Source: Pseudobacteriovorax antillogorgiicola (lineage in GTDB: Bacteria > Bdellovibrionota_B > Oligoflexia > Oligoflexales > Oligoflexaceae). From it: a stretch of DNA of 64,000 nt. The translations under genes were made by a program, and so were the position numbers. The notes under the pieces were generated by a model. That model was not told the DNA's origin and did no database searches. It worked only from the letters and a program-made list of their open reading frames with translations. Position 1 is the stretch's first letter; each line of letters opens with the position of its first letter. The stretch covers positions 62,001 to 126,000 of the forward strand of contig NZ_FWZT01000022.1 of NCBI RefSeq assembly GCF_900177345.1. The letters are read 5' to 3'. Positions 38,882 to 45,126 of this stretch are shown one piece after another.

Positions 38882-39706
38882 TTACCAGGACCGAGGGCTG
38901 TTCTGCACTCGTGGGTATTTCTCGATGTTATGAAATAGCATTTGAAAGCCTTTGTTCTGACAATAATCCAATGCATCTTGATGATTCATTTTAGTTGCGG
39001 AAGCATGAAGAACCGATTTATCCCAGTTGCACTGGGTTAGATTGGTCACGTGGGTTGCACAGGGGGTCTCGCATATTACGGGATACTTTTTCTTGCAATT
39101 TCGCTCTACGACCGCAGTGCCTTCTACAAGAGTGATACAATCATCCACGTACTGATCCGAATTCCAGGACCAGATCCACGCTTCTTTGGGTAGGAAAAAC
39201 GGTGCTTCAGGAATATCGAGTTTTGCCATAAGTGTTTGTTTTAGATTCTTTTTCGACGTGGAGCTAGTCGTAATTCTAACAACCAACTGATTATCAAGCA
39301 CCGACTCAAGCTCGACCAAGGTATTGATTGCTAGGAGCGAGCTGCTTGCAACGTTCCCACTTTCGAAAATCGCATCGAAGCTTTTCGAACTGTTATCGAG
39401 GGAACTTTCATGTTGAATCGTAAGTGTTCCATCTCCATTAGCTTTCACATGGTCGGCTTTACTGGTAAGCTCGAATTGAGCTTTTAGTGGATCGACATTG
39501 ACCAGGGACTGGCCGTAGGCATCTGACTCTAACATGCCCTTGAGCAGGGCAAGTGCCGAAATGTTCGCTTCACCCGCTTTGCTCACATATTGCTTTACCT
39601 GACCTTCCTTGAGAAGACGTTTGTTTTCTTGGACATCATCCATGGTCTGAAACATCCCGACAGCCCCAATCACGGAAATGGCTTGTACAGTAAAAATCGA
39701 TTTCAT
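38882..39706 (-). CDS. envelope protein with C-terminal lectin-like Cys module (paralogue of 40194-40742)
   Basis: A 274-residue protein with an ideal AAGGAGG site. The N terminus has a hydrophobic stretch (IFTVQAISVIGAVGMF) that could be a signal or pilin-like anchor. Residues about 25-170 are helical then beta-rich, unrecognised. The last ~100 residues align with the neighbouring lipoprotein: WSWNSDQYVDDCITL, ERNCKKKYPVICE, then NHQDALDYCQNKG. The first two look like the C-terminal half of a C-type lectin fold (WN..C, ..C....P.ICE). The last looks like its N-terminal half (tweeA..yC...G), so the halves are in reversed order. It is preceded by a 54-codon gene. Confidence 0.65.
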   Translation of the reverse strand: MKSIFTVQAISVIGAVGMFQTMDDVQENKRLLKEGQVKQYVSKAGEANISALALLKGMLESDAYGQSLVNVDPLKAQFELTSKADHVKANGDGTLTIQHESSLDNSSKSFDAIFESGNVASSSLLAINTLVELESVLDNQLVVRITTSSTSKKNLKQTLMAKLDIPEAPFFLPKEAWIWSWNSDQYVDDCITLVEGTAVVERNCKKKYPVICETPCATHVTNLTQCNWDKSVLHASATKMNHQDALDYCQNKGFQMLFHNIEKYPRVQNSPRSW

Positions 39707-40193: not shown

Positions 40194-40742
40194 ATGCAAC
40201 TTTCAAAGACCTTCGTGACCTTAGGCCTCTTTATTTTCACCTGCGCTTGTGGGCCGAGCAAGTTCAAAGCTGTTACGGACGAAAAAATGGAATCAAGTGA
40301 CCTTATTGTGGCTCAGACCACGGAACCGGAAGCTAAAGTGTCTCAAGTGGCCCACCCGGACCATCAAGATGTAAGTAATCAGCCTGAAGTGAACTCGCCA
40401 GAGATAGCTCGAACCGAGACTAAGAAAAGCCTGTTGGGTCAGACGGTTTGGGTTCAGTCTTGGAACACTGACGAATACCAAACAAGTGAATGTTTGCAAC
40501 TCACCCAAGGTATCGCTGTTACTGAACGAGACTGCCAGGAGACTCTACCTGTGGTTTGCGAAAGTATTTGCCAAGCAGACGCAACATCTCCAGAGGACTG
40601 CGACCAAGAGGTATTTGTATTCCAAGAAAAGAAGGACTCCCTTACATATGAAGAGGCTGCGCAATACTGCGAATCGCAGGGGATGGTGGTTCTGAAGTAC
40701 CATCACTCGAAAATTGAAACTTTCCGCTCAGCTCAAAATTAG
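40194..40742 (+). CDS. lipoprotein with lectin-like Cys module (paralogue of 38882-39706)
   Basis: A 182-residue lipoprotein (MQLSKTFVTLGLFIFTCAC-G). After a low-complexity, Glu/Ser-rich linker (about 25-80) comes a ~100-residue module shared with the divergent neighbour: WVQSWNTDEYQTSECLQL, VTERDCQETLPVVCE, and SLTYEEAAQYCESQG followed by KYHHSKIE. These resemble the two halves of a C-type lectin domain in permuted order. Eight Cys suggest disulfides outside the cytoplasm. Its TAG stop is formed by the first bases of a dispersed repeat end, but the module ends where its paralogue does, so the protein is probably not truncated. Confidence 0.65.
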   Translation: MQLSKTFVTLGLFIFTCACGPSKFKAVTDEKMESSDLIVAQTTEPEAKVSQVAHPDHQDVSNQPEVNSPEIARTETKKSLLGQTVWVQSWNTDEYQTSECLQLTQGIAVTERDCQETLPVVCESICQADATSPEDCDQEVFVFQEKKDSLTYEEAAQYCESQGMVVLKYHHSKIETFRSAQN

Positions 40743-41395: not shown

Positions 41396-41557
41396 AGGGG
41401 CTGTTGACCTTTGGAACACACCTCGCTGGTCTGACTGGATGAAGACAAGGCTAGGAGCTAGGGGGAGGCATATCGGCAATATGTTAACCACGAGCGACAA
41501 CGGATTGCGTTTATCAAGGCATATCAAATGCTTGTGTTCCAAAGGTCAACAGCCCCT
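41396..41557. mobile_element. 162-bp MITE-like element with perfect 25-bp terminal inverted repeats
   Basis: Ends 41396-41420 and 41533-41557 are perfect reverse complements for 25 bp, beginning AGGGGCTGTTGAC. Taking GGGG as the tip, a TA dinucleotide flanks both sides, consistent with a 2-bp target duplication. The ~110-bp centre has no gene. The ends resemble those of some IS5-type elements, so a non-autonomous derivative is likely, but no transposase is in the window. Its right end is 43 bp before the bufA start codon. A decayed copy lies at 15333-15490. Confidence 0.85.
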
Positions 41558-41600: not shown

Positions 41601-41876
41601 ATGAAAAAAGAATCGCTTCTCTTCGCATCAATGATCGGTCTAGGACTCAGTGGATTGGCACTTGCCGGCAGTAAGCCTGAATGGGCTAAAAAAGGTGATA
41701 CCATCGTCAAGTGCAAAGGAGTTGCCAAAAAAGGGAAAAATGATTGTGGTGCCAACGGCCATGCCTGCGCTGGCCAAGCTAAAGTTGATAACGACCCGAA
41801 TGAGTGGGTATATGTCCCTTCAGGTTTGTGTGAAAAAATTGGTGGATCGGTGGCCAAGAAAGTCAAGGTTAAATGA
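41601..41876 (+). CDS. bufA: bufferin precursor peptide, DUF2282 family (BufA1-like)
   Basis: A 91-residue RiPP precursor. AGGA is 7-8 nt before the ATG, and a signal peptide ends LALAG. The core has the four conserved Cys of DUF2282: KCKGVAKKGKNDCGANGHAC (Cys38, 49, 56) and SGLCEKIGGS (Cys77), with WVYVPSG before the last. In studied bufferins an MNIO enzyme (BufB) with its partner (BufC) converts Cys residues to thiooxazoles, and the exported peptide binds copper. The stop overlaps the bufB start (ATGA), so the genes are coupled. The MITE-like element lies in the promoter region. Confidence 0.9.
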   Translation: MKKESLLFASMIGLGLSGLALAGSKPEWAKKGDTIVKCKGVAKKGKNDCGANGHACAGQAKVDNDPNEWVYVPSGLCEKIGGSVAKKVKVK

Positions 41877-42703
41877 CCCTACCTACGGTGCATTCAGGTG
41901 TGGGCCTCAGCCTACACTTGGATCAAATAGACGAATTCTTAGCGAGTGGAGCAAATCTTCCCTATGTTGAAGTTGTTGCCGACAATTGGCTGAGTCCGGG
42001 ACCTCACCATAAAAAACTAGAACAGATTCGCCAAGACTACGACATACTTTTTCACTGTGTCAGCGGAAATTTGGGCGGACTGGATCCCATAGACCTTGAT
42101 TACTGGCAAGCGATTCAGAGCTTAAGAAAGCGGTACCAGCCCAAGCATGTTTCTGATCACCTATGCTTTTCTCGGGATGAAGGCACTTACTTTCATGACC
42201 TGCTGCCGATTCCATTTAACGAAGAATCTCTGAAGCGTTGCGAGGAGAGAGTCCTACTGGTGCAAGACATGATATCAGAAGCAATTCTAATCGAAAATCT
42301 ATCTTATTACTTTGAGTATCCTGAATCGACCATGGCAGAGGATCAATTTATTAATCAGCTTTGCCTAACATGTGACAGCTATATTCTCTTGGATCTCAAC
42401 AACATCTGGGTGAATGAACAAAATCTAAGTCATTCTGCTGCAAACTACCTTAAGAATATCAATCGCGACCGTGTCCGCGAAATTCACCTTGCTGGGCCAG
42501 AGAAGATTGATAACCGCTGGGTCGATACCCATGGTAGCTTTGTTCAAGATTCCGTTCTGGAATATCTTGAGACATTTCTGGCAAACCATTCAGTGCCTGT
42601 AATATACGAGCGGGATCGTCATCGACCATCATTTGGTAAGCTCCTGGAAGAGTGCTCACAAATCAATGCTAAAATAGGATACTATCCATGGACCACCCCT
42701 TGA
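41873..42703 (+). CDS. bufB: DUF692 multinuclear non-heme iron oxidative enzyme (BufB/MbnB-like)
   Basis: A 276-residue TIM-barrel enzyme that modifies Cys in the precursor peptide. Likely metal ligands are spread along the chain: HSGVGLSL at the N terminus, YVEVVADNW, FHCVSGNLGG, VSDHLCFS, LIENLSYYF (E-N-x-S of the family), LLDLNNIWVN, EIHLAGPE and WVDTHGS, with YERDRHRP near the end. Length agrees with DUF692. It starts inside the bufA stop and its own end overlaps bufC by 16 bp. BufC normally presents the precursor to this enzyme. Confidence 0.93.
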   Translation: MTLPTVHSGVGLSLHLDQIDEFLASGANLPYVEVVADNWLSPGPHHKKLEQIRQDYDILFHCVSGNLGGLDPIDLDYWQAIQSLRKRYQPKHVSDHLCFSRDEGTYFHDLLPIPFNEESLKRCEERVLLVQDMISEAILIENLSYYFEYPESTMAEDQFINQLCLTCDSYILLDLNNIWVNEQNLSHSAANYLKNINRDRVREIHLAGPEKIDNRWVDTHGSFVQDSVLEYLETFLANHSVPVIYERDRHRPSFGKLLEECSQINAKIGYYPWTTP

Positions 42704-43179
42704 GACGGATAGCTCGGCAAATACGGACCATGTCTACCAAACAGCTTGAGCTGCATCCATATATTCAGAATTATCTGTTCAATCACCTGGATGCTCTCAA
42801 GGAGGCATTTCCTGCCACCTACCGCTTCTTGGGGGAAAACAACTTTAAGTACTTCGGGAGGCTTTACCTTTTGGATAACCCTCCTGGTAAAGCCAATATC
42901 GATCTCTATGGCGAAGATTTTCCAGAATTTCTAGGAAAACAAGATGAATTCAGAGAGATGGTCTATCTAAAAGACATTGCCGCCATAGACTATCTTTGGT
43001 TTCTGCAAAACACAGAGGAGGCAACTGTTCGAGTTGCAGACGGTACCCTTAACTTGTGGCGAGGGCTTGTCGACGAAGTTGAGCTTGAAGAAATCGAGAT
43101 TGATACCAATCAGCCGGTGGATATTAGCTGCCACTGGCATCAGGGGGAGCTTGTACTGGCTGCCCAGTTAGTGACCTAG
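42688..43179 (+). CDS. bufC: short BufC-like partner protein (DUF2063)
   Basis: A 163-residue partner of the DUF692 enzyme. AGGA lies 8 nt before the ATG, which overlaps bufB. The DUF2063 domain is recognisable: QNYLFNHLDALKEAFPATYR, LGENNFKYFGRLYLL, DLYGEDFPEFLG and YLKDIAAIDYLWF. After it only a small ~60-residue tail follows, rich in acidic residues and ending HWHQGELVLAAQLV. Typical BufC proteins I know are about 250 residues with a larger C-terminal domain, so this one is shortened. No DoxX-type BufD gene follows. Confidence 0.82.
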   Translation: MDHPLRRIARQIRTMSTKQLELHPYIQNYLFNHLDALKEAFPATYRFLGENNFKYFGRLYLLDNPPGKANIDLYGEDFPEFLGKQDEFREMVYLKDIAAIDYLWFLQNTEEATVRVADGTLNLWRGLVDEVELEEIEIDTNQPVDISCHWHQGELVLAAQLVT

Positions 43180-43346
43180 CCCTGCCTTAAATCCTCAGTA
43201 GGTAAAGATTGCAAGCTGCACTTTTTTTTAGTCCGCTATCATAAAAATCAAAATAGCAAGAGCCAGCCCTGAGAATATTGAGCCTGGTTCCTCAGGTTGA
43301 GCGATAGCTAAATCGAATTTGATAATTTTATGAAGAGGACTAAATC

Positions 43347-44249
43347 ATGAAAACCTATCTCATCACGGGCATATTCTTGCTCTTACTATCACCCCCATTA
43401 CTTGCAGAGACTCTCACAGAATATGCTCTAAACTGCGAAACCCATGTAGGAGGTGAGATTCCCACATTTTCATGCCTAGATGGAGCTATAATTCCTATCC
43501 AAGGATCGGAACAAGGTCCATGCGAAAACCCTCAAATTCTGAACGGAGAATGCTGGAACTACTCACGGCTCGGAAAGCTGGAAAGTGGTGATCAAGATGT
43601 AGAAATTCGCTTTCTCTGCCGACATTACAATAAAGCTTCCGGTCCCGATGATTACATTTTTAATGATATTGCCTTGATTCAAAAGAATATGAAAACAGGT
43701 GCCACGTGTTTTTTTCAATCTCCGTCCGGATACCGCCCTCGTCACGACGGGCGGCGGATCCAAGCACCTCGTCGTGGTGATCTCACAGTTTGGCAAACCC
43801 CTGAGGTAACTGCCTCTCAGGAGTGTGTCGGATGCCATGATAATCGAGGCTTTTTAAAAACACCTTTTGTGCAAGGAGTCGAGGGCTACCATGCAGTGCC
43901 TCGCCCAACCCCCACGTTGCAATATTACTTTCCCGGTGATGTCACAGACTACTGGCGTGTATATGAAGTTCGCTCGACGACCCAACCAACTTGCTCTGGG
44001 TGTCATACTCTTGGCATGTCCAATGTGGATCGAAGCTTTCGAGGCACGGCTCGAACCATCGGTCTGCAAGCGGCTGGCTTGCGTCGCACCTATGGGCAAG
44101 TTTTAGGGGCAAGCCCTTGGATGCCTTATGGGGAAGTGTCTGCTCAGGCCCATGCACGGTGTGTTGCTAACCCTAGCCAAGAAGAGTGCCAAATTACAGC
44201 TTTCGATCACTATGAGTGGGATAACACCAGCTATGAAGCCGGTAATTAA
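43347..44249 (+). CDS. secreted protein with two CxxCH (heme-c-like) motifs
   Basis: A 300-residue secreted protein; AGAGGA precedes the ATG and the signal peptide ends LLAET. Heme-attachment-like motifs are ECVGCHDNRG (about residue 162) and TCSGCHTLGMS (about 215), with further Cys in the N-terminal half that may form disulfides. The tail has a Cys pair (RCVANPSQEECQ). The middle segment GYRPRHDGRR is basic. A periplasmic di-heme electron carrier is plausible, but the sites could also bind metal. It lies 167 bp after the bufferin operon and overlaps the next gene by 17 bp; a copper link is inference. Confidence 0.75.
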   Translation: MKTYLITGIFLLLLSPPLLAETLTEYALNCETHVGGEIPTFSCLDGAIIPIQGSEQGPCENPQILNGECWNYSRLGKLESGDQDVEIRFLCRHYNKASGPDDYIFNDIALIQKNMKTGATCFFQSPSGYRPRHDGRRIQAPRRGDLTVWQTPEVTASQECVGCHDNRGFLKTPFVQGVEGYHAVPRPTPTLQYYFPGDVTDYWRVYEVRSTTQPTCSGCHTLGMSNVDRSFRGTARTIGLQAAGLRRTYGQVLGASPWMPYGEVSAQAHARCVANPSQEECQITAFDHYEWDNTSYEAGN

Positions 44250-45126
44250 CTTCACTTTGGGCCTAGGAGGAAGTGCCTTGCTCCTTGCCCTTGTCTCTTG
44301 GCAAACCTTCATAGAACCTCCCCGTGACCATGAAGTGAAGTTGCAACAAAAGACTAGGGCCCCTCTTGGTGCACCACAAGAAGGCGGATCCATCTCGCCT
44401 TTAGCACTGCCTTCAACAAAATCGAGGTTTGAGCGTCACGATATGGGAAGCATTTTTCGCTTGATTGATAGCGGCAACTGGCAGGCGGCCGAGAAGGCTC
44501 TAACAAGCATGATATCTCACAACTCGCAAAACATAAAAGCCATCAACGAACTTATGATTCTTAAGCAGCACGATCGAAAAGATTTAGATGAAGCGTTGAA
44601 CTTGTGTATCAGGCTAGTCGCTACCGCACCCGACTACCCTTTCATATTTGATAAGCTACGAGAGCTAGCCCAGTTAGCGGAACGAGAGCGAGATGTAATA
44701 ACTTGGCTCCAGTCTCAATGGCAAGAGCTTCCTAAAGAGAGGGTGGCTACCACCATCGGCCGCCTTTGGCAGGCCCTGGATGATCACCGCGAAGCAAGTC
44801 TCTGGCTTAAGGAGGCTTTGCGGCACGAAGGTGATCAACAAGGCTATATTTGGGGTTACCTGGCAAGATCCTATCATCACTTAGACCAGAAAAGCGAGGA
44901 GAGTGCGGCCTTACATGAGGCCATTCGAGTCCACAAACAATATAACAATAACGTGGACCCTAGGGAACCCAAGAACTTTCGTGCAACCACTCCCTATAAA
45001 TATCAGCTTCTGGATTCCTATTGGTCGCAGCGAAAGCTAGTAGAAGCGAAACCCTTGCTTAACGAGCTTCTACGTCGTGATCCTGCAAATCCTAAACTTC
45101 TTGCTTATCAGGCTGAGCTTCTCTGA
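44233..45126 (+). CDS. membrane-anchored TPR protein
   Basis: A 297-residue protein with one N-terminal anchor (FTLGLGGSALLLALVSW), a Pro/Arg-rich stretch to about 60, then TPR-type helices: SGNWQAAEKALTSMIS, KDLDEALNLCIRLVATAP, DHREASLWLKEALRHEGD, and KLVEAKPLLNELLRRDPANP. The repeats should lie in the periplasm. The start at 44233 overlaps the upstream di-heme gene's last 17 bases, suggesting coupling. In cytochrome systems TPR proteins hold apocytochrome (CcmI type), which fits the partner gene but is not proven. Confidence 0.75.
   Translation: MKPVINFTLGLGGSALLLALVSWQTFIEPPRDHEVKLQQKTRAPLGAPQEGGSISPLALPSTKSRFERHDMGSIFRLIDSGNWQAAEKALTSMISHNSQNIKAINELMILKQHDRKDLDEALNLCIRLVATAPDYPFIFDKLRELAQLAERERDVITWLQSQWQELPKERVATTIGRLWQALDDHREASLWLKEALRHEGDQQGYIWGYLARSYHHLDQKSEESAALHEAIRVHKQYNNNVDPREPKNFRATTPYKYQLLDSYWSQRKLVEAKPLLNELLRRDPANPKLLAYQAELL

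Follow-up and report, generated by a model that had tools for sequence, protein, structure and literature searches.

In the bufferin-1 (Buf1) operon of Caulobacter vibrioides, a DUF2282 precursor with four cysteines and a signal peptide is encoded together with an MNIO enzyme and a DUF2063 partner, in the order ABC and with tight coupling between the genes (PMC12452194). Bufferins are described as having their two central cysteines modified and a disulphide between the outer two (PMC12452194), and the signal peptide doubles as the leader, according to Junger 2026 as cited in PMC13419390. A survey of RREs could not identify a recognition motif in DUF2282 precursors (PMC12710340). The type 1 partners of MNIO enzymes (PME-type 1) are described with a narrow length distribution of ∼250-260 residues and a full RRE, and partial RREs are ascribed to PME-type 2 (PMC12452194).

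The captophorin clusters (fontiphorin FonABC, gonophorin, and oxazolin HvfABC) also combine an MNIO and a PME1 acting on a secreted Cys peptide (PMC13097082, PMC13419390), but their precursors are built of EGKCG repeats, and an RRE is present in their partners. The MNIO-PME1 systems that have been characterised introduce 5-thiooxazoles and also bind copper (PMC13097082). The active mixed-valent iron state requires HvfC, and fusing HvfB directly to HvfC gives an engineered protein of high activity (PMC13419390).

A bufferin-1-type operon in Pseudobacteriovorax

The window analysed here comprises 64,000 nucleotides of Pseudobacteriovorax antillogorgiicola, whose 7.28-Mb draft genome (G000) holds a single DUF2282 gene and two genes each for MNIO and DUF2063 proteins. 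Judged from sequence, three coupled genes of the window are a real bufferin-1-type operon, in which the short BufC, and not the missing DoxX gene, is the real finding. The features are as follows.

41397..41556, no strand: MITE-like repeat of 160 bp, bounded by perfect terminal inverted repeats of 24 bp and flanked on each side by TA
41601..41876, + strand: bufA, DUF2282 bufferin-1-type precursor, 91 aa (PF10048, 5.9e-22, above cut-off)
41601..41666, + strand: predicted Sec signal peptide of BufA, residues 1-22, cleavage after ALA (translation read by eye)
41873..42703, + strand: bufB, MNIO (DUF692) maturase, 276 aa (PF05114, 1.6e-76)
42688..43179, + strand: bufC, short type-1 partner of MNIO enzymes (PME1), 163 aa (PF09836, 2.9e-11)
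42718..42933, + strand: DUF2063 domain of BufC, residues 11-82 (Pfam match)
43024..43167, + strand: RRE remnant of BufC, residues 113-160 (strand, short helix, and two strands in the model)

The reading frames run from an ATG at 41601 to a TGA at 41874-41876 (bufA), from an ATG at 41873 to a stop at 42701-42703 (bufB), and from an ATG at 42688 to a TAG ending at 43179 (bufC), so that a 4-bp ATGA overlap joins bufA to bufB and a 16-bp overlap joins bufB to bufC. Pfam profile searches placed all three products above the curated cut-offs in DUF2282, MbnB_TglH_ChrH (formerly DUF692), and DUF2063, the families in which the initial annotation had placed them, and the gene order is that of bufferin operons. 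The initial proposal, a bufferin-type operon made of homologues of BufA1, BufB, and BufC with overlapping joints, is thereby borne out. The E-values, the order of the genes, and their recurrence in relatives leave no concern about a chance match.

BufA contains exactly four cysteines (C38, C49, C56, and C77) in the DUF2282 arrangement. Its N terminus, MKKESLLFASMIGLGLSGLALA with GS following the cleavage point, appears by eye to be of the Sec type with typical n-, h-, and c-regions. BufA is 64% identical to its homologue of the same family in G001. In BufB, residues H61, H96, E141, D174, N177, H205, D218, H220, E246, and D248 are invariant across seven aligned BufBs; following MbnB/HvfB, we take the first nine of these to be candidate metal ligands and D248 to be a candidate base. 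A PDB relative of BufB is 3bww (3.7e-36). Scanning the genome contigs with BufB alone gave no matches, and matches were obtained instead with a DUF2282 alignment.

A DoxX gene (BufD) is often present in bufferin operons but is not required. None adjoins bufABC, where the ORF after bufC starts at 43347, 167 bp on, and encodes a CxxCH protein; two DoxX genes are found at other places in the source genome. The absence of BufD after bufC had been put forward as a possible mark of a distinct variant. The absence itself holds, but we rejected it as a sign of a new variant because many DUF2282 clusters have no neighbouring DoxX, the DoxX count being a lower bound from a profile built from few sequences. 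FonABC, like the operon described here, has no DoxX, and the minimal ABC cluster from Fontimonas functions without it (PMC13097082). The operon is a variant of the bufferin-1 kind and not a separate kind; it differs from the Caulobacter Buf1 operon in that no DoxX follows and BufC has neither the RRE helices nor the full linker.

The MITE-like repeat ends 44 bp upstream of the bufA start, and the genome holds about 17 other substantial copies of the 160-bp repeat together with shorter pieces, at 73-85% identity. Because of its position, any bufA promoter must lie in the repeat, in the 44 bp, or upstream and reading through, and with a mobile-element-like repeat at the expected promoter the expression of bufABC is not assured. 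Promoter and terminator scans gave results at chance level.

The truncated partner

As had been noticed initially, BufC, with 163 aa, is without its usual C-terminal part, and both profile comparison and modelling place the RRE helices in the missing portion. The first description, that most of the C-terminal part is gone, can be sharpened: ∼60 C-terminal and ∼25 linker residues are missing, but the DUF2063 domain is still there, as are the RRE beta strands. BufC scores 43.9 bits against the DUF2063 cut-off of 27.2 and thus carries the Pfam signature of PME-type 1, whereas the full RRE typical of that type (∼250-260 residues) is not present in a protein of 163 aa. When a profile of nine short partners was aligned by hhalign with one of 35 full-length partners from DUF2282 clusters, the match covered positions 1-203 of 264 (E 1.9e-27), the short partners being without ∼25 linker residues and everything beyond the second RRE strand pair. 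Their end point maps ahead of the first winged-helix helix in the solved partner 3dee, to which the similarity is weak.

The AlphaFold2 model of BufC (pLDDT 80.7, pTM 0.73) shows the DUF2063 helices, followed by a strand at 113-116, a helix at 120-127, and strands at 144-151 and 154-160, after which the chain ends. The DUF2063 part is helical, with pLDDT of 84-97 for the ten-residue blocks between residues 21 and 100, and the last 16 residues fall below 50, making the hairpin uncertain. According to this model, BufC lacks the three C-terminal RRE helices with which the peptide-binding cleft would be complete. The only fold matches in the PDB with meaningful probability were to TglI of TglHI (8hci and 8hi7), at weak E values of 0.04 and 0.10. 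TglI is therefore the closest solved fold, but it is 268-269 aa long and has pearlin, a C-terminal Cys scaffold peptide, as substrate. A phmmer search of BufC against PDB sequences gave chance matches only.

Short BufC does not give the impression of a defective gene. When the six frames of 42601-44400 were searched with a profile of the RRE half, no remnant of the lost part came up, and we rejected a frameshift or pseudogene since no RRE remnant lies downstream in any frame. We also compared BufC with PME-type 2 partners, many of which are small proteins that have just a DUF2063-like domain or an RRE that is truncated (PMC12452194). Those partners have no Pfam DUF2063 signature and their precursors have no signal peptides, whereas BufC has the signature and is paired with a precursor that has a predicted signal peptide. 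Short bona fide PME-type 1 partners tied to DUF2282 precursors were not found in the article texts, and supplementary tables may list some.

Recurrence of short partners

Among 43 genomes of the order, short partners of 163-198 residues with a like architecture were found in G000, G001, G008 (two), G009, G016, G017, and G018, and in an Oligoflexales MAG (G023, locus L117) a short BufC is fused to BufB and adjoins a DUF2282 gene. The short form is thus seen in seven Oligoflexales-like genomes besides the source genome, once as a BufB fusion. Within the order, a DUF2282 gene is adjacent to six of nine short partners but to only 2 of 25 full-length ones (Fisher p 0.0014, with the counts tallied by hand). 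At 56 DUF2282 loci from other lineages, partners have a median length of 255 residues, and 3 of them are shorter than 200. Among these three, in the related Gammaproteobacteria Neptuniibacter (L154) and Oceanospirillaceae (L168), the partners end just past the RRE strands, and in a Myxococcota-like MAG (L092) the partner is the DUF2063 domain alone, at 115 aa.

In the MNIO tree, BufB of the window forms one clade with L019, L026, and L073 that contains short partners only (SH-aLRT 99%), and L027 and L029 are placed elsewhere on long or poorly placed branches. Parsimony on this tree gives five changes. Two of these are forced by well-supported branches, and the short partner is therefore likely to have arisen independently at least twice. 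The best reading of short BufC is a naturally occurring form in which the half that activates the enzyme is preserved while most of the recognition half is gone. Such natural partners, with the DUF2063 domain but without the RRE helices, amount to separation-of-function variants that need no engineering. With them, the tasks of the two halves of the partner can be tested directly in the largest class of MNIO peptides, and the recurring loss, in relatives, of most of the domain presumed to hold the peptide lets one ask whether maturation needs it.

In two relatives the bufferin genes are scattered. One contig of G009 (C1) carries the genes for DUF2282, MNIO, and short DUF2063 at three separate locations, and in G017 (L070 and L072) the MNIO and short DUF2063 genes are on different contigs. 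Natural BufB-BufC fusions are common (L069, L075, L077-L081, L083-L085, and L117), mostly with other Cys-rich precursors, and have the same domain order as the engineered HvfB-HvfC fusion. A Foldseek search with a model of the BufB-BufC fusion returned top matches to the MNIO half only.

The DUF2282 precursors at L025 and L026 carry a lipobox-like signal (LTGC and LGC), so that both may be lipoprotein bufferins. As a substitute recognition element we considered a PxWA(K)K motif that follows the signal peptide. It occurs in 5/12 precursors from loci with short partners versus 6/87 others, and looks lineage-linked because it is also found in L023, a cluster with a full-length partner.

Proposed maturation and alternative readings

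We consider it fairly likely that the operon makes a copper-binding peptide of the bufferin-1 type and that the short BufC is a functional, maintained partner without the three RRE helices. From the sequences, the product is probably a small copper-binding peptide located outside the inner membrane. The sequences directly show the gene families, their order and overlaps, how far BufC is truncated, that the truncation recurs, and that no remnant follows it; the chemistry and the role of copper we infer from the families, and the division of labour in BufC and the mode of substrate holding are likewise inferred. BufB, activated by BufC, would convert the central C49 and C56 of BufA to 5-thiooxazoles in the cytoplasm; the modified BufA would then be exported by Sec, a disulphide would link the outer pair C38 and C77, and copper buffering in the periplasm would be the task of the mature peptide. 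The expected mass shift of -4 Da per modified Cys, as first suggested for this peptide, agrees with the literature (PMC13097082). The DUF2063 domain of BufC would dock to BufB and, by analogy with HvfC, enable the mixed-valent iron cofactor. Since BufC has lost the three RRE helices, the substrate would be held mainly by BufB, perhaps with strand pairing to the remaining beta hairpin of BufC, and not in a complete RRE cleft.

A different activity for BufB and short BufC, whether another modification or a role in another metal or redox stress in place of copper thiooxazoles, is unlikely in our view. Among NCBIfam families the best for BufB is NCBIfam BufB, but its 244.9 bits fall under the 310-bit equivalog cut-off, and the preferred model for the precursor, BufA2, likewise scores under its own cut-off; both scores count against the bufferin-1-type reading. 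Several chemistries are also carried out by MNIOs, and for some bufferins metals other than copper have been proposed (PMC12452194). Every characterised MNIO-PME1 system nevertheless installs 5-thiooxazole (PMC13097082), and BufA keeps the DUF2282 core and the four cysteines.

The full-length DUF2063 protein encoded elsewhere in the genome, on contig C14, might act in trans on the operon of the window. It belongs to a second operon, MNIO-DUF2063-DUF427-like, at ∼149.4 kb of C14 (L001:1408-3375), that has no adjacent precursor, an arrangement that would suit a protein supplying recognition to BufA while short BufC is only an accessory. We regard this as quite improbable: the C14 MNIO groups with a different, well-separated enzyme set in the tree, a better candidate precursor for it is found on contig C27, and, of the remaining genomes with short partners, G008, G009, G016, G017, and G018 have no full-length DUF2063 match at the search sensitivity used. 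That BufC is a decaying gene, with a recently deleted RRE in a degenerate or inactive cluster, is very improbable despite the repeat insertion 44 bp ahead of bufA and a partner of 163 aa against the usual ∼255, because the same end point occurs in several genera and in at least one well-supported clade, all three reading frames are open, BufA and the metal-site residues of BufB are conserved, and no RRE remnant was found downstream of bufC.

With a functional short BufC as the preferred reading, a wider proposal can be made, which we hold tentatively and at somewhat less than even chances. The partner's RRE cleft may be dispensable in some bufferin systems, its essential job being MNIO docking and activation. 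The RRE helices would have been lost several times independently, in Oligoflexales-like and Oceanospirillaceae-type systems and with complete RRE loss in the Myxococcota-like MAG, and the signal peptide and core would be recognised in another way.

Upstream of the C14 MNIO operon we observed a 16-bp palindrome, GGTTGGTCGACCAACC. Contig C27 (L191:1495-1857) encodes an orphan 120-aa Cys-rich secreted peptide that follows a 449-aa ORF resembling a CheA/HPt-type kinase. This peptide shares 32% identity with the G002 precursor from a related MNIO cluster and may be the substrate of the C14 enzyme. Closer to bufABC, the window encodes two divergent secreted proteins (38882-39706 on the - strand and 40194-40742 on the + strand) that have in common a C-type-lectin-like Cys segment, running from WVQSWN../WIWSWN.. 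to VCE/ICE, with lectin matches in Pfam that are sub-threshold only.
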